A stretch of 27,706 nucleotides of DNA from a virus. The stretch is taken from the IMG/VR virus record IMGVR_UViG_3300048028_000141, positions 1 to 27,706 of that record; one strand, 5' to 3'. Shown in pieces: positions 2,972-15,985 of the stretch; position 1 is the stretch's first letter; every line of letters begins with the position of its first letter. The notes below the pieces were generated by a model, which saw nothing but the letters and a program-made list of their open reading frames with translations, made no database searches and was not told the DNA's origin. The translations under genes were made by a program, and so were the position numbers.

Positions 2972-4231
2972 TTATCCTATCATATCGGTTGCGGGCAAAG
3001 AATAGCTTGAAGCCATTTCTTCTTCAAGTCTTTGAATCTCTTCTCTCGCATCACTTAAAATTTGTTCTCCATTGAACTGAACGCCACCGGGCAATGTCAT
3101 GCCATTGAACTTGGTGAGATTTGAACCCCACTGATACTTGATCTTAGCCGATGCATAGTTTTGTAGGAAACGGTCTTTCCAAACATCAGAACCATTTGAC
3201 GTATCTACAGTTTTATATGCTTCAACAACAATATAGTTACCCAGTGAAAGTTGATCCCAATCTGTATCAATCTGAATCTTGTTTGTGTGTCTATTGAATC
3301 TTAGTTGCTGTTTACCAACCAACATCTCATCTAAAAGAGATAGATGAGCCATTGACATATAGTAATGAGTTATGTTATAATTAACTATGTCGTGTAAGTT
3401 ATGAAGAATAAACTGATACTTTGCGTTAAACATACCAGTACCAGTAGATACTTCTGATTCCATTGGGAATAGATTAGAAACACCAATGTATGGGTCTTCA
3501 ATAGTCTCGAAAGTAAGACCAGTTGTTGAGCCAGCAACAGTTGTTTCGCCAGAACCATCTGTATTCTTTAACTGAAAAGTTCCACCACCAACTGAAGATG
3601 TAGATACTCTGTAGTCACCAGTTGCTAGTGTTGCTCCACCAGTTAACACACCAGATACTCTAATCAATTGACCAACTTCTGGAACATTTCCAGTTGTAGT
3701 GAACGAAGCAACTGTGTCAGACACTGCTATTGTGCCAGTCATCTTCGTCTTAACACTTAGATCAATGTAGCGAGTTTCGTACAACCCTCTGTATAAATCT
3801 GTTATTTGTCGTGCATCATTAGCCCCATGCACACTTGCGAAAGTATCACTTGTAGCGAACTTACCTATAGTAAACTCACTTAGAGATGGTCTTTTAAAGA
3901 AAACTCTGTTGTTATCTACATCGACTGCAACTACAGTTGCTTTTGCTGTGGCTTCTTCAGCACCACCACTAGATGAAGATACTTCTTTGATGACATCACC
4001 TACTTTGAAGTCACCCTCTGAAAGTGTGCTAAATTCGATATAAGAGTTCAGTACTCTGGCTTTATAATATACTTTTTCTACACCATCGAAGTGATAATCA
4101 TGATAATACGCTAACGCCTCATCAACTCTATCTGTCACTTGATCATCAGAAACATTGATATCGATTACTGGTTTACCCAGTTTTCTGAGACAATATTCTT
4201 TAAATTCGGCTTTAGTTGTTGGCTCTGCCAT
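2972..4231 (-). CDS. gp13: Neck protein gp13, enlarged by inserted modules
   Basis: T4 gp13 (309 aa) is a head-completion protein of the neck. Here the protein is 419 aa. The N-terminal core is residues 1 to about 57 (TKAEFKEYCLRKLGKP, DRVDEALAYYHDYHFDG). It resumes at about 245 with YIGVSNLFPM, FNAKYQFILHNLHDIVNYNI, YYMSMAHLSLLDEML and KIKYQWGSNL. Between these lie two short beta-type modules: about 70-130 (FKVGDVIKEVSSSSGG... VDNNRVFF) and about 163-243 (SFTTTGNVPEVGQLIRVSG ... GTFQLKNTDGSGETT). The second is shared with the 3' end of the plus-strand gene ending at 9755. Start ATG at 4231, with AGGA about 8 nt upstream and late promoter box TATAAATA about 34 nt upstream. It is the first gene of the gp13-gp17 transcription unit. 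Confidence 0.92.
   Translation of the reverse strand: MAEPTTKAEFKEYCLRKLGKPVIDINVSDDQVTDRVDEALAYYHDYHFDGVEKVYYKARVLNSYIEFSTLSEGDFKVGDVIKEVSSSSGGAEEATAKATVVAVDVDNNRVFFKRPSLSEFTIGKFATSDTFASVHGANDARQITDLYRGLYETRYIDLSVKTKMTGTIAVSDTVASFTTTGNVPEVGQLIRVSGVLTGGATLATGDYRVSTSSVGGGTFQLKNTDGSGETTVAGSTTGLTFETIEDPYIGVSNLFPMESEVSTGTGMFNAKYQFILHNLHDIVNYNITHYYMSMAHLSLLDEMLVGKQQLRFNRHTNKIQIDTDWDQLSLGNYIVVEAYKTVDTSNGSDVWKDRFLQNYASAKIKYQWGSNLTKFNGMTLPGGVQFNGEQILSDAREEIQRLEEEMASSYSLPATDMIG
3497..3745 (-). repeat. Module in gp13 shared with the plus-strand 1143-aa gene
   Basis: This segment encodes about residues 163-243 of gp13. It matches the product of 9456-9720 on the plus strand: TTGNVPEVG against TTGNLPELG, TFQLKNTDGS against TFQLKNQDGS, and TTGLTF in both. 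Similarity is visible at DNA level around the CAG-TTA/CTA-AAGAAT-x-x-AGATGGT core, suggesting fairly recent exchange. Confidence 0.7.
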
Positions 4232-4721: not shown

Positions 4722-5933
4722 ATGTCTACTTCTACTATAAAAAGAGGCCTTATCACTAGAGGTGTTGCAACAAAGGGTCTTATATTTGAATCAGAATTCG
4801 CAGTCACAGGTGAACTAACTTCAGTTATTACATCTGCTGGGTCACTTAGTGTCAATGAAAATATTGATGCGGATACTGCTGTATATACAGCTACCGCAAG
4901 AGATCCGAATGGTGTGACTTCTGGCTTCTCATTTGCCATATCTACTGGTAATTCTTCTGACTTCACGATAAACTCTAGCACTGGTGTTGTGACAATAGAT
5001 GCTTCTCCTAATTTTGAAGCACAGCCATCATATTCATTTACAGTCACAGCAACAAAGAGTGGGCAACCAACAGCAACAAAAAATGTAACTATTGGTGTCA
5101 ATAATCTTGATGATACTGCACCAACTATTACTTCTGGTGCTACAGCGACAGCAATCGCAGAAAATTCTGGTGCAGGTCAGGTTATTTACACTGTAACTGC
5201 TGATGATTCTAGCGATATTTCTGGTGGAGTTACATTCTCGAAGAGTGGTACAGATCAGAGTCACATCAGCATAGACTCAACAACAGGCGCAGTCACATTA
5301 ACTGCTAACCCTGATTTCGAAACTAAGTCATCTTATAGCTTTAATGTAATTGCTACAGATGCGGCAGGCAATAATTCTACTCAAGCAGTGACACTAGCAA
5401 TTACTGATGACACTTCTGACAATGGTATTCAACACACAATCACTCATCTCAGTCAGTGTATTCAAGGTAGTTCCACACCATATACGGAAGCAAATGGCTT
5501 CTGTTTATATGGGGCACACTGGACAGGTAATTCTAATACCGGAAGCTATAGAGGCGGTTCGAGTGTTAGCCCTGATCATAACTCAATTTGGGGATCGAAG
5601 GGTGCAAATAATGCTAATATGATTCAAGACCTTTGTTTTACTACCAGTAACTATGGTGGATATAGTTCAAGCCAACCATCTCGTCATAGGTTTACCGTCC
5701 ATGTTGCAGGAAATCACTCTAACAACCCGACCAACTGGTCAGTTACCCCTAACCCAGGAGTATCAGAAACATTCAATAAAGCTGACCTTGATATAAATAC
5801 ATATCAAAGTAATGGAGCGCATTTCTATGAATGGTATCTGGGCGCAACTGTGCCTGCGTCAGGAACAGCATGGCACGCCGCTAAAAACTTTACAAATGGC
5901 AACACTTGGACAACAACATTCACTGTACTATAG
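4722..5933 (+). CDS. Cadherin-repeat adhesin-like virion protein
   Basis: A 403-aa protein with three parts. Residues 1-38 form a short basic N-terminus (IKRGLITRGVATKGLIFES), like N-termini of other small phage structural proteins. Residues about 40-130 and 138-230 are two tandem cadherin-type repeats: each has an acidic NEN/AEN start, an S-x-TG-x-V-T strand, (S/N)P-(N/D)FE followed by SYSF-x-V-x-AT, and an Asp-rich linker (NNLDDTAP after repeat 1, ITDD after repeat 2). In cadherins these acidic positions bind calcium between domains. Residues 236-403 form a Trp/Gly/Ser-rich globular domain that I do not recognise, ending HAAKNFTNGNTWTTTFTVL. No signal peptide or membrane segment is seen, which fits a virion component rather than a secreted host protein. 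AGAGG lies upstream of the ATG. Host-binding fibre or decoration is inferred. Confidence 0.7.
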   Translation: MSTSTIKRGLITRGVATKGLIFESEFAVTGELTSVITSAGSLSVNENIDADTAVYTATARDPNGVTSGFSFAISTGNSSDFTINSSTGVVTIDASPNFEAQPSYSFTVTATKSGQPTATKNVTIGVNNLDDTAPTITSGATATAIAENSGAGQVIYTVTADDSSDISGGVTFSKSGTDQSHISIDSTTGAVTLTANPDFETKSSYSFNVIATDAAGNNSTQAVTLAITDDTSDNGIQHTITHLSQCIQGSSTPYTEANGFCLYGAHWTGNSNTGSYRGGSSVSPDHNSIWGSKGANNANMIQDLCFTTSNYGGYSSSQPSRHRFTVHVAGNHSNNPTNWSVTPNPGVSETFNKADLDINTYQSNGAHFYEWYLGATVPASGTAWHAAKNFTNGNTWTTTFTVL

Positions 5934-11911: not shown

Positions 11912-14900
11912 CTATGTTGCGTCTATCTGCACTGTCCAGTTTGAACTCAACAGTGTTTGAAGTTTTTCATATGTGGTACCCTCACCTTCACCTAAGGCTT
12001 GTATTGATGCTATCGACAAACCGTTGTTGTTTGTAAGATTCACAGTAGCGTTTCTATTTGTATTTGCGATATAATTGGTATATAAATCATCAATAATCTG
12101 ATAAGCACCAGAAGTTAAAGCATTATTGCTGAAGTTAAAGTTAAGACAAGAAGTACAAGTATCAATACGACTATTATTCGTATACGAATCAAAACGATTG
12201 TATTGCGCTTGAATTTCTAAAAGACCAGTACAAGCACTTAAATCTGGTACTGGGCCGCTAAACTCATTTTGGAAAATTTTAAAATTCTGTAAGTTTGGTG
12301 CATCAACCGCAGGGAAAGCGCCTGACAAAGAATTACTTTGTAAATTCAAAGTCTCCATAGAATCTAGATTATCCATGTTACCCAGAGAGCCAGTAAAACC
12401 TATGCTTTTAACAACTTGATTAGAAGACTCTAGTCTTACAACAGTACCAGTACCATAATTAGCCGCTCCTGATATTCTTTCAAAATAATTACCAAGTATA
12501 GACGAAAAAAGCGCAATTACCAAGGCGCCACCAGAACTGCCGTATCCACTATTACTCACTGTGATTGTATCACCCTCACCCCTTACGGTACTACTACCAG
12601 TCCAATGTGTAATTAAATCATTCCAACCACTTAACCCTTGATATTTTCTTCTAATCTTATATGTACCAGTATTTGACGCAACAACAGAATCTATAACTAT
12701 ATTGACCGAACTACTAGCTTCAAATGTATCCCCTACTGAGTATACTACGTTAGAAGTACCTGCGATTGTATTCCATTGGGCTTGGGTTGTATTACCTAAG
12801 TCAGTAATTCGATAATTCATATCCTGTGTTAATGTGTTTACATCAAGTGGTGTATATTCAAAATAATCTCCGACCGCAGGGTGAGAGCCTCTAGCGAGAG
12901 AATCTCCCCAAGTCACAACATCAGAATTTGTTTCTGAACTGCTCCAACCAATATCTTCAAACTCATGCGGCATTATACCAGATGTTCCCAAACTCTCAAG
13001 TATGGCAGTATTACCGATAGCAACACCGGCATAAAACCCCGAAGTATTTCCAAACGGCGCTTGAGTTATTTCATATATATTCTTTCTTTTCAATGAATCA
13101 AATGGAACCTCTTTATTTGTCTTTTCAAGATTCACTGTATCCAAATCATTCAAACCAGTAAATGTTGGAATAGCACCATAGAAGTGTCCATCACTAATAG
13201 TCAAACTTTTTAAATTTTCCAATTCGACAAAACTGATACCTATAGGAGTAGACCCCTCATCATTAATTAATCTACCACCCATAACAGATGTACCTCGTAT
13301 TTCTATACTCTGCATTGATAGTCTTACGCCAGTAAATAGTTGTCCTGTTCGATTTGCAGTTCCATCAACACCAAAGAAGTCGAAACCCTTATTAGATGCG
13401 GTAGAATTTGGAACAGGTGCTGTTGGGTCATTAGCGTTCATAATAAATTTAAAAGTCTCTAGCTGATTTGGGCTATTAAGACCACCACTACCAAAAGTAT
13501 TATCACTGAGAATAAACTCAAGTCCATTAACATTGTTAAGAGTAATACTTTTTATCGATTCTTTATCTACAAAAATATTACTAATATCTCCTCTTGGTGC
13601 AAAATCTGAGTCGTAGTTACGACCAATATTTGTAAAGTTAAAACTTGTCATTGAAGTAAGACCAACAAACTTATTTGCCGAAATATCTCTAAGTGCGGCT
13701 GTTTCTAGACTTGTTGGAAAATCATGATTTACTATAGACAAAGATGTCAGATTGTTATTACCACTTATATCGGGTATATTACATTCTGCTTGGTCAAGAT
13801 TAAGTTCTTTGAGTAATTTACTATCAAAATATATTGCTGATTGAAATTCACTTTCTGCAATCGTAGCAGAGTTTGTTGAGTCTTTATTTTGATAATCACC
13901 ATTACCAGTAATAACCAATCCACTAACATTAACTTTTTCTAACCTCGTACTATTCAATACTGAGTTTGGTAGTCTGGTATAACCTGCGTTTGTCACAGTA
14001 TAATTCTTGGCGCCTACAGAGGGAGTGGTGTGCTTTTCACCTAGCTTAGAATCTGAAGCATCATAATTCCATTTTACTAGTTCGTGAAAATTACCAGAAC
14101 CAGTACTGCTAATTGAAAATGTGCTGTCTGTATTACCATCTGTGTCGGTGGGGCTTGTTAATCTAACATGATTAGAATCAAGACTTATAACTTTATAGAT
14201 TACATTACCTTGTGTACCAACACTTGTGTCGGAAGCAGACGAAGAAGTCAACCCTCCGGGTGCTACACCTAAATTATTCGAATCGTCTACTCTTGCTATG
14301 TACTGAACAAAATCTCCAGTAGAGAATTGATGAGAACTAATTGCAATCTTGTGTGTACTAGCATTACCAGTTGTTACATTTGAACTAGAAAAACTTGCTC
14401 TGTAGTTGGGGTCAGCCATAGCAGGCGCTGTGCCAGTAGATGTAATACGATCAGTTAGATTACTACTACTAGCATTTCCTATTTTAAATTCTTCTAGATT
14501 TGTTATGTGTGCAAGAGATATCGTTCCAATATTACCACTAAAGCAATCTTGAAGTCGTAAGTCTTCGACAGTAGGTGGTATCCTATTCAGTTGTGCTTGC
14601 GCTACAAGATTTTTTTGCTCTACAGTAGTAGATCCGTCTGGATAGGTAACTCCCAAATCATCCAAAAAGTTTTCGCCAGCAAATAGCGGGTTGTCACTAG
14701 CAAAAAGTCTTCTCAAACTTGGTGCTATTGTTTTAAAATCTGGTAACACCGAAAACTGGTTATTACTAATCTCTACACTAGTCAATGAAGGCAAAACGAT
14801 AAACGGAAACTCATTCATAAACAATGCGTTCAAGTCTAAATAATTTATTCTATCTGGTGGATAAAATATCTGTATATCAGCTTGACGATTTGACTGTGAG

Positions 14901-15985
14901 GGATTGTATTGGGCGGCTTTACCGGTATAAGATTTCTCTAAATTTGTTACCGCATTAGGTGCAGACTCAGTTGGCTGACCAACAAATGCTTGATTTTGTA
15001 TATCAAATCTTTTGAATGCGACAGGAATAGTGCCTTCAGCATCAGAAAGAAATGGTTCATTAACACCAACAAAAATACCTGGCGCACCTGCAGTTATTCT
15101 GAATGTCAAAGGAATACCCTTCATTGCAGGGAATGTTTTGAATTCTCCGTTGATGTTTAGTTGTATATTGTGTGTAGGTTGCTCTGCTCTAAATTCTTGT
15201 GGTATTGGCTCTTGAGTTAGACCAAGATTGGTTGTCGATAAAAACTCACCAGTGCAAGATAATTTTGCTCCATATGTGATGTAAGAATCTGGATCGGCAG
15301 GCGCAACACCAATAGGCGACCAAGAAGAAACTCTAGATGTCGATATATCTGCCTGCTTCACATCCCAATATCTTACCAGACTAAATGTAGCACCTGACAA
15401 ATCACTAAGACTTTCTGTATATGCATTTCCATTCAACTGAACCAACTTAACAGCAGTCGCTGTTGGATCAGGACTACTATGCACTTTATAGTCACCCGAA
15501 GTTAATGAAGATGATCCACCTATTCTTATTACATCACCAACCACTAAAGTCTTTGTCGTATTGGTTTCACTATCTGTAAATGAAGTTGCATTTAAAGTAC
15601 CACTACTTACATTGGACAAACCACTTAACAATGTAACAGTAGGTTCATCGTAGTCGATATATCCATACTTAATTGCACCTGCAACCATTCTATTATTGAT
15701 AGAATAGTTGTATTCTTGATCTACATTAACTTCTTTAAACTGATTAGCTAGAAACTGCGCCCTTACACTACCATTGTCTAGGGCATCAAATATTCTATTT
15801 TGGTCGTCTTTAAGACCAGATAATGTGTGCAACTCAGTTACATCTATACCTGCGTCAGATAGACCACGAATAAGATTAAGATCATTTATTCTAAGACCCA
15901 GATTCGCCAATGCTTCCGATGGGTTATCCACATCGATTAGCGACTTTGCTATATTAAGACCTCTTGGAATTTCTATAACGGCCAT
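11912..15985 (-). CDS. Leucine-rich-repeat tail-fibre/baseplate-type protein, 1357 aa
   Basis: The N-terminus (AKSLIDVDNPSEALANLGLR) is of the phage-fibre attachment type. A virion-type segment follows near 220 (ISTSRVSSWSPIG). From about residue 375 irregular leucine-rich repeats appear: LPSLTSVEISNNQFSVLP, LKELNLDQAECNIPDISGNN, LKSLTISDGHFYGAIPTFTG (about 923), METLNLQSNSLSGAFPAV and LQNFKIFQNEFSGPVPDLSA (about 1208-1255). Several match the plant-type pattern L-x-x-L-x-L-x-x-N-x-(L/F)-(S/T)G-x-(I/V/F)P. The solenoid is interrupted by unrelated short modules near 115-195, 530-630 and 1050-1092. Cys-rich residues (TCTSCLNF) lie near the last repeats. AAGGA precedes the ATG, which overlaps the previous stop by one base (TAATG). 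LRR proteins usually bind proteins or glycans; host-receptor binding is inferred. Confidence 0.82.
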   Translation of the reverse strand: MAVIEIPRGLNIAKSLIDVDNPSEALANLGLRINDLNLIRGLSDAGIDVTELHTLSGLKDDQNRIFDALDNGSVRAQFLANQFKEVNVDQEYNYSINNRMVAGAIKYGYIDYDEPTVTLLSGLSNVSSGTLNATSFTDSETNTTKTLVVGDVIRIGGSSSLTSGDYKVHSSPDPTATAVKLVQLNGNAYTESLSDLSGATFSLVRYWDVKQADISTSRVSSWSPIGVAPADPDSYITYGAKLSCTGEFLSTTNLGLTQEPIPQEFRAEQPTHNIQLNINGEFKTFPAMKGIPLTFRITAGAPGIFVGVNEPFLSDAEGTIPVAFKRFDIQNQAFVGQPTESAPNAVTNLEKSYTGKAAQYNPSQSNRQADIQIFYPPDRINYLDLNALFMNEFPFIVLPSLTSVEISNNQFSVLPDFKTIAPSLRRLFASDNPLFAGENFLDDLGVTYPDGSTTVEQKNLVAQAQLNRIPPTVEDLRLQDCFSGNIGTISLAHITNLEEFKIGNASSSNLTDRITSTGTAPAMADPNYRASFSSSNVTTGNASTHKIAISSHQFSTGDFVQYIARVDDSNNLGVAPGGLTSSSASDTSVGTQGNVIYKVISLDSNHVRLTSPTDTDGNTDSTFSISSTGSGNFHELVKWNYDASDSKLGEKHTTPSVGAKNYTVTNAGYTRLPNSVLNSTRLEKVNVSGLVITGNGDYQNKDSTNSATIAESEFQSAIYFDSKLLKELNLDQAECNIPDISGNNNLTSLSIVNHDFPTSLETAALRDISANKFVGLTSMTSFNFTNIGRNYDSDFAPRGDISNIFVDKESIKSITLNNVNGLEFILSDNTFGSGGLNSPNQLETFKFIMNANDPTAPVPNSTASNKGFDFFGVDGTANRTGQLFTGVRLSMQSIEIRGTSVMGGRLINDEGSTPIGISFVELENLKSLTISDGHFYGAIPTFTGLNDLDTVNLEKTNKEVPFDSLKRKNIYEITQAPFGNTSGFYAGVAIGNTAILESLGTSGIMPHEFEDIGWSSSETNSDVVTWGDSLARGSHPAVGDYFEYTPLDVNTLTQDMNYRITDLGNTTQAQWNTIAGTSNVVYSVGDTFEASSSVNIVIDSVVASNTGTYKIRRKYQGLSGWNDLITHWTGSSTVRGEGDTITVSNSGYGSSGGALVIALFSSILGNYFERISGAANYGTGTVVRLESSNQVVKSIGFTGSLGNMDNLDSMETLNLQSNSLSGAFPAVDAPNLQNFKIFQNEFSGPVPDLSACTGLLEIQAQYNRFDSYTNNSRIDTCTSCLNFNFSNNALTSGAYQIIDDLYTNYIANTNRNATVNLTNNNGLSIASIQALGEGEGTTYEKLQTLLSSNWTVQIDAT
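12705..12832 (-). repeat. Module copy in the leucine-rich-repeat gene
   Basis: Encodes NYRITDLGNTTQAQWNTIAG, then YSVGDTFEASSS. It carries the same Tyr, Leu-Gly, Trp-Asn and Val-Gly-Asp-x-Phe order as the gp15 copies and is located between leucine-rich segments. Confidence 0.65.

Follow-up and report, generated by a model that had tools for sequence, protein, structure and literature searches.

The window analyzed here, a 27,706-nucleotide stretch of viral DNA (positions 1 to 27,706 of the IMG/VR virus record IMGVR_UViG_3300048028_000141), encodes a large leucine-rich repeat (LRR) protein, P0001, which we consider, with a probability of about 0.6, to be a tail-fiber-class virion protein carrying an LRR arm on the virion that most likely touches the host surface. 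The gene (11912..15985) is one intact open reading frame (ORF) of 1357 codons (1357 aa) on the minus strand, with the ATG at 15985 and the stop at 11912-11914; the plus strand across this interval is full of stops. The computations show the fold, the family, the cassette of genes, the invariant number of repeats and the hot sites of insertion; receptor binding is the most probable role, for which we infer both the contact with the host and the surface that makes it. Under the proposed mechanism, residues 1-364 (helical and beta) would dock on the virion, whereas residues 365-1357 would form a single LRR solenoid, about 20 strands long, built like the ectodomain of a plant receptor kinase and projecting as a curved arm; this arm would most likely contact a glycan or protein of the host surface both via its Tyr-rich concave face and via island-like modules inserted into a few of its loops.

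The LRR solenoid and its inserts

The presence of plant-type repeats, initially proposed from inspection of the sequence, is borne out by several comparisons. The repeats LNLQSNSLSGAFP (residues 1213-1225) and FKIFQNEFSGPVPDLSA (residues 1235-1251) both map to approximately 12233-12349 of the window. A position-specific scoring matrix (PSSM) for plant-type LRRs, made by hand, detected three non-overlapping high-scoring repeats in P0001, far above the shuffled copies of the same protein (mean 0.05, maximum 1), and zero in five other large proteins of the window that were used as additional controls. A phmmer search of PDB sequences with P0001 retrieved plant receptor kinases, namely, AT5G25930 (the best match, E = 2.5e-12) and STRUBBELIG-RECEPTOR FAMILY 6 (E = 5.6e-7). 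In the short relatives, two residues of the plant-type consensus are present, G at offset 12 (62%) and P at offset 15 (52%), but the repeat spacing is 22-23 residues. The LRR-specific profile search suggested as a check in the original prediction was positive for the relatives but not for this copy: in Pfam, LRR_4 matched 36 of the 40 relatives and LRR_8 matched 34 of them (best E = 1.6e-24), and P0001 itself gave only sub-threshold LRR matches, which would account for the missed annotation.

Structure prediction agrees with the sequence comparisons. The AlphaFold model of residues 365-1357 (predicted local distance difference test, pLDDT, 81.7; predicted TM-score, pTM, 0.81) aligns end to end with plant receptor ectodomains (TDR; VIA Z 18.9, 490 residues, root mean square deviation 6.1), so that the solenoid originally placed at residues 370-1350 is recovered over its whole length. 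The model of L027, an uninterrupted short relative of 828 aa, has pLDDT > 90 across most of the LRR residues and matches plant receptor ectodomains with Foldseek E = 8e-13 (BRL3) and VIA Z 24.7; the two models, built from two alignments, agree. The raw Foldseek TM-scores are low, probably because the curvature and the inserts differ, and the case for the LRR is accordingly built on sequence, Z and the local geometry of the repeats taken together. Given these results, it is very improbable that P0001 lacks true LRRs and instead contains Leu/Asn-rich low-complexity or beta-helix sequence that locally resembles the motif: the sub-threshold Pfam matches of P0001 would fit such an explanation, but the curated Pfam LRR matches in most of the relatives, the high-confidence solenoid models with their end-to-end structural alignment and the shuffle control all contradict it. 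P0001 is thus predicted to carry a curved LRR solenoid of about 20 strands, with a concave parallel beta sheet, interrupted by inserted blocks.

To map these blocks, 61 family members were projected onto P0001. Occupancy is near 1 at residues ~1-110, 209-370, 371-520, 660-950, and 1197-1357 and low at 116-208, 524-654, and 958-1196; the latter three segments are missing in most relatives, in agreement with the inserted modules noticed originally. The protein (all coordinates on the minus strand) opens with an N-terminal anchor (residues 1-110, 15656..15985; occupancy 0.74-1.0) that bears the fiber-type motif LIDVDNPSEALANL at residue 16 and is helical, with low confidence, in the L027 model. 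Insert A (residues 116-208, 15362..15640), an insertion relative to L027, has an occupancy of 0.08-0.27 over most of its length. It is followed by a conserved beta domain preceding the solenoid (residues 209-364, 14894..15361; occupancy mostly 0.6-1.0), which corresponds to beta strands in the L027 model (101-283) and includes the stretch with the highest conservation in the family, ADISTSRVSSWS, with invariant columns. LRR solenoid block 1 (residues 365-523, 14417..14893) is defined by the AlphaFold model, with the VIA alignment running from model residue 1-2 on, and is separated by insert B (residues 524-654, 14024..14416) from block 2 (residues 655-957, 13115..14023), which is delineated by model strands and the VIA alignment. 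Insert C (residues 958-1196, 12398..13114) harbors a copy of a small module, denoted A (residues 1058-1091, 12713..12814; profile match E = 2e-17). Block 3 (residues 1197-1290, 12116..12397) contains the plant-type repeats with PSSM scores of 19.8 and 16.8 and the phmmer matches to plant receptor kinases, and the C-terminal cap (residues 1291-1357, 11915..12115; occupancy 0.72-0.98) is a helix-strand cap in both models.

Across the 96 full-length members of the family, the core is nearly constant in size, at 784 +/- 17 residues, and the inserts range from 17 to 888 residues, with the total length following the insert length (r = 0.998). The hot sites of insertion lie after L027 residues 414 (21 members with an insert of at least 20 aa), 667 (29 members, by the same threshold), and 791 (11 members). 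The site after 414, occupied in P0001 by insert B, is a shared one, and the inserts of the relatives are homologous; the site after 667, occupied in P0001 by insert C, is the main one and accommodates inserts of up to 646 aa. Module A, of about 35 residues (consensus YKITDLGTTTQADWNAIAGTSGSTYAVGDVFTAT), is found in a total of 77 proteins in 33 loci; in the window, besides insert C, it is present in three copies in P0003, one in P0006, and two in the T4 gp15-like protein (965-2182).

A conserved gene cassette and a widespread family

The family was reached through the neighbor of P0001, P0002, for which 80 related viral contigs were fetched. In 66 of these, the gene next to P0002 is a P0001 homologue; among the other 14, 11 end before the next gene, in one (L047) another gene follows P0002, and two (L077 and L079) lack a P0001 homologue, so that the family occupies the equivalent place in 66 of the 69 testable viral contigs. 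When the family alignment was used for a further scan, the collection grew to 98 distinct members. The family is widespread and apparently unrecognized, and the original description of the LRR arm as uncommon needs qualifying, since within this phage group the LRR protein is a near-universal component of the cassette.

The cassette consists of P0001, its immediate upstream partner P0002 (15985..19884, minus strand), a virion structural protein of phrog_1645 (PHROG E = 6.8e-28), the P0002 paralogue P0004 (19888..24711, minus strand; also phrog_1645), and P0005 (24721..27705, minus strand), a right-handed beta-helix protein truncated at the end of the window (Pfam Beta_helix, E = 9.1e-8). Directly downstream of P0001 is the module-rich P0003 (9752..11902, minus strand), for which tblastn gave no match in the phage collection, followed on the opposite strand by P0006 (6324..9755, plus strand), which combines an N-terminal fiber motif with modules A and B. 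The order P0005-P0004-P0002-LRR-P0003-P0006, with the last gene on the opposite strand, recurs in the loci inspected. The phrog_1645 and beta-helix partners, together with the T4-type gp14, gp15, and terminase genes nearby, support the structural setting of the gene that had been surmised from the sequence. Homologues of P0002 are present in the phages of the S-TIM5 group; those of P0002 and P0004 extend to the tail region of Synechococcus phage S-CBS4 and of Cylindrospermopsis phages.

Among cultured phages, the family profile finds AEZ65694.1 (UniProt H6WFW9) of cyanophage S-TIM5 with 139 bits and its S-TIM54 counterpart with 128 bits; AEZ65694.1 is also matched in the whole-genome search (E = 4.6e-32) and ranks first among the predicted viral structures that were matched (E = 4e-15). 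It is annotated as a virion structural protein and is encoded in the same gene order as in the window. Like P0001, both cyanophage proteins have homologous neighbors, an LRR region, long inserts and profile homology over the N-terminus and the solenoid, although the divergence between AEZ65694.1 and P0001 is too great for tblastn. The S-TIM54 homologue exceeds the Pfam LRR_4 cut-off; the record annotations of S-TIM5 and S-TIM54 do not mention LRRs, and the PHROG families matched by some members have no assigned function. In the open literature searched, there was no paper linking LRRs with cyanophage virions and no account of the P0001 family.

Against 50,697 phage records, tblastn with P0001 produced no close homologue, only chance matches with E up to 10. 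The same search with L027 gave no match, and with another short relative, L048, it matched only unannotated records labeled Listeria phage, probably via generic LRRs. The family profile detected no member in phiM12, DLP_6, P-TIM40, Melnitz-3, S-CREM1, or S-CBS4, indicating that T4-like phages do not carry the family in general. Only two contigs emerged when 84,980 bacterial and archaeal genomes were scanned, both in metagenome-assembled bins. These contigs (L164 and L165, in Cellulomonadaceae TMED98 and Opitutales bins) are likely to be phage contigs binned with bacteria, so that neither bin names a host.

The proposed role of the LRR arm

A phage-fiber N-terminus was part of the original prediction, and the comparison of the families supports it: the motif LxD[VIL]..ALxNL, which we take to be a mark of fibers, is found at residue ~16 in P0001 and at the same position in the P0006 family. 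The strict pattern is present in 40 of the 98 members and in none of the shuffles. P0001 lacks an N-terminal hydrophobic segment (maximum 15-aa hydropathy of 0.89 in the first 50 residues), and this absence, combined with the anchor motif, leads us to read P0001 as a fiber. A location of P0001 in the virion is suggested by the annotation of the S-TIM5 homologue AEZ65694.1. Consistent with a binding surface, the concave positions of the solenoid are Tyr-rich (26 percent Tyr overall, 45 percent at offset 2). That P0001 is instead a secreted or otherwise cell-acting LRR protein outside the virion, involved in adhesion, inhibition of host defense, or superinfection exclusion, seems improbable. Many cellular LRR proteins are indeed adhesins, receptors, or effectors, and internalins are among the fold matches of P0001; however, the lack of a signal-like hydrophobic N-terminus, the fiber-type anchor motif along with the position in a structural cassette, and the virion annotation of the S-TIM5 homologue argue to the contrary.

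Several observations weigh against a receptor-binding arm. All 18 of the 18 reference LRR strands are occupied in 91 of the 96 members and 17 in the remaining 5, which rules out diversification through repeat number, with the caveat that strands were counted from the alignment to the profile and small repeat shifts could stay hidden; the number of repeats, which the original prediction singled out for comparison among relatives, is constant. The concave face is no more variable than the convex one (mean entropy of 2.17 vs 2.12), so that hypervariability of this face is ruled out as well. Among the short members, the entropy of the LRR region (1.92 to 2.15) is hardly higher than that of the N-terminus (1.78 to 1.94). 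Furthermore, pLDDT over residues 1-160 of L027 is largely below 60, and hence the docking and the oligomer state are weakly constrained. The constant repeats and the lack of excess variation on the concave face would also be in keeping with a conserved arm of structural function, bound to a different protein of the virion. Of the two features expected of a hypervariable LRR receptor like the lamprey variable lymphocyte receptors (VLR) or plant R-proteins, namely, excess variation of the concave face and variation in repeat number, the P0001 family has neither.

A rigid arm or bracket that holds fiber proteins, such as P0003 or P0006, with the host contact made elsewhere, for example, through the inserted modules on their own or through P0005, the beta-helix protein, is the principal alternative, although we consider it rather unlikely. 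Apart from the constant repeat number and the unremarkable concave face, such a scaffold would be compatible with the strict linkage to the same cassette partners and with the sharing of module A by P0001, P0003, P0006, and the gp15-like proteins. Conversely, close pairs show somewhat greater divergence in the LRR region than in the N-terminus, an exposed 20-strand Tyr-rich face exceeds the needs of a bracket, and the N-terminal fiber-type anchor motif suggests a projecting arm. The difference between the two regions is modest: among 17 close pairs, which are not independent, LRR identity is below that of the N-terminus in 14 of the 16 untied ones, by at most 14 points. Some inserts diverge faster than the core (67 vs 84 percent identity for L015/L019; 41 vs 58 percent for L003/L004), whereas others do not (92 vs 89 percent for L011/L013). 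Fast change is thus local, confined to some insert sites and some pairs, and the divergence of the family is moderate, short of arms-race hypervariation. Hence the characterization of P0001 as rapidly evolving is weakly supported at best, considering the constant repeats, the lack of concave excess, and the merely modest surplus of divergence in the LRR region over the N-terminus.

A broader scenario, which we offer tentatively, is that a widespread class of aquatic phages uses as its display scaffold a plant-receptor-like LRR arm fixed at about 20 strands, on which specificity would be changed by swapping small modules at a few loop sites rather than by repeat number or hypervariation of the concave face; the modules would circulate among fiber and neck proteins, and the cassette would move between virion backbones (the T4-type window and S-TIM5). 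The swapping of modules in this scenario can be likened to the island domains of plant receptors. Most characterized phage receptor-binding proteins are trimeric beta structures, and a conserved LRR-solenoid fiber, if the receptor-binding reading of P0001 is correct, would add a distinct architecture of host recognition in a widespread phage group and provide a likely function for a family left without one in record annotations and PHROGs. The combination of a constant scaffold with variable inserts is a testable idea of how the arm could alter specificity, for which S-TIM5 on Synechococcus WH8102 is a cultured test case.

Relationships to known LRR proteins and the phage backbone

The plant LRR receptor kinase ectodomains (BRI1/BRL, HAESA, TDR, RGFR1, ERL1) share with P0001 the LxxLxLxxNxLxGxIP repeats and the solenoid, and some of these receptors, such as BRI1, contain an island domain between the repeats. 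P0001 differs in that it has no transmembrane or kinase part and a phage N-terminal anchor replaces the plant N-cap; the identity to the plant ectodomains is about 14-23 percent. The spacing of its C-terminal repeats is 22-23 residues, compared to the usual 24 in plants and to 23-25 in the definition of the plant-specific LRR class. The plant-like motif is no evidence of plant origin. Internalins and Leptospira LRR proteins are fold matches as well (InlJ, Z 18.6; InlF, Z 18.2; LIC12759, Z 17.2); these proteins, which are secreted or exposed on the cell surface, have signal peptides and repeats of other types and, unlike P0001, lack the phage anchor.

LRR proteins have been noted before in tailed phages. 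In Vibrio mediterranei phages, an ORF in the tail module, weakly assigned as LRR (10 percent HHpred probability), encodes the most diverse protein (PMC10945359), and ORF 287 of Vibrio phage pir03 contains a BspA-type LRR (PMC7765460). The internalin-like protein of the uncultured phage cr52_1 is a fold match only to the P0001 family, with a TM-score of 0.13. None of these three has a sequence match to P0001 in the phage collection; what is new here is an LRR protein of the fiber class that combines a fixed solenoid with modular inserts.

The window closes with T4-type genes, which encode a gp13-like neck protein (tblastn matches to neck proteins), the T4 neck protein gp14 (Pfam), the T4 gp15 tail sheath stabilizer, the small terminase, and the large terminase, of which the N-terminal part is present. 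The large terminase has its closest counterparts in Sinorhizobium phage phiM12 and related phages (60 percent identity). The neck, sheath, and terminase genes identify the virus as a T4-like myovirus, which, judging by its relatives, is probably marine; no tRNAs were found. S-TIM5, in contrast, has been described as lacking a T4-like structural module (PMC4928673). Because it nevertheless carries the LRR cassette, the cassette appears to be common to different virion backbones, which suggests transfer of the whole fiber cassette between the S-TIM5 type and the T4-like phage of the window.

Two further features of the window involve the neck genes. Residues 161-242 of the gp13-like neck protein (2972-4231) comprise an insert of about 80 residues homologous to P0006 residues 1040-1127 (E = 4e-17), around which the homology to other neck proteins is broken in two. 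Between the fiber and neck genes, a 403-aa protein (4722-5933, plus strand) contains two cadherin-like domains (Pfam E = 4.5e-23).

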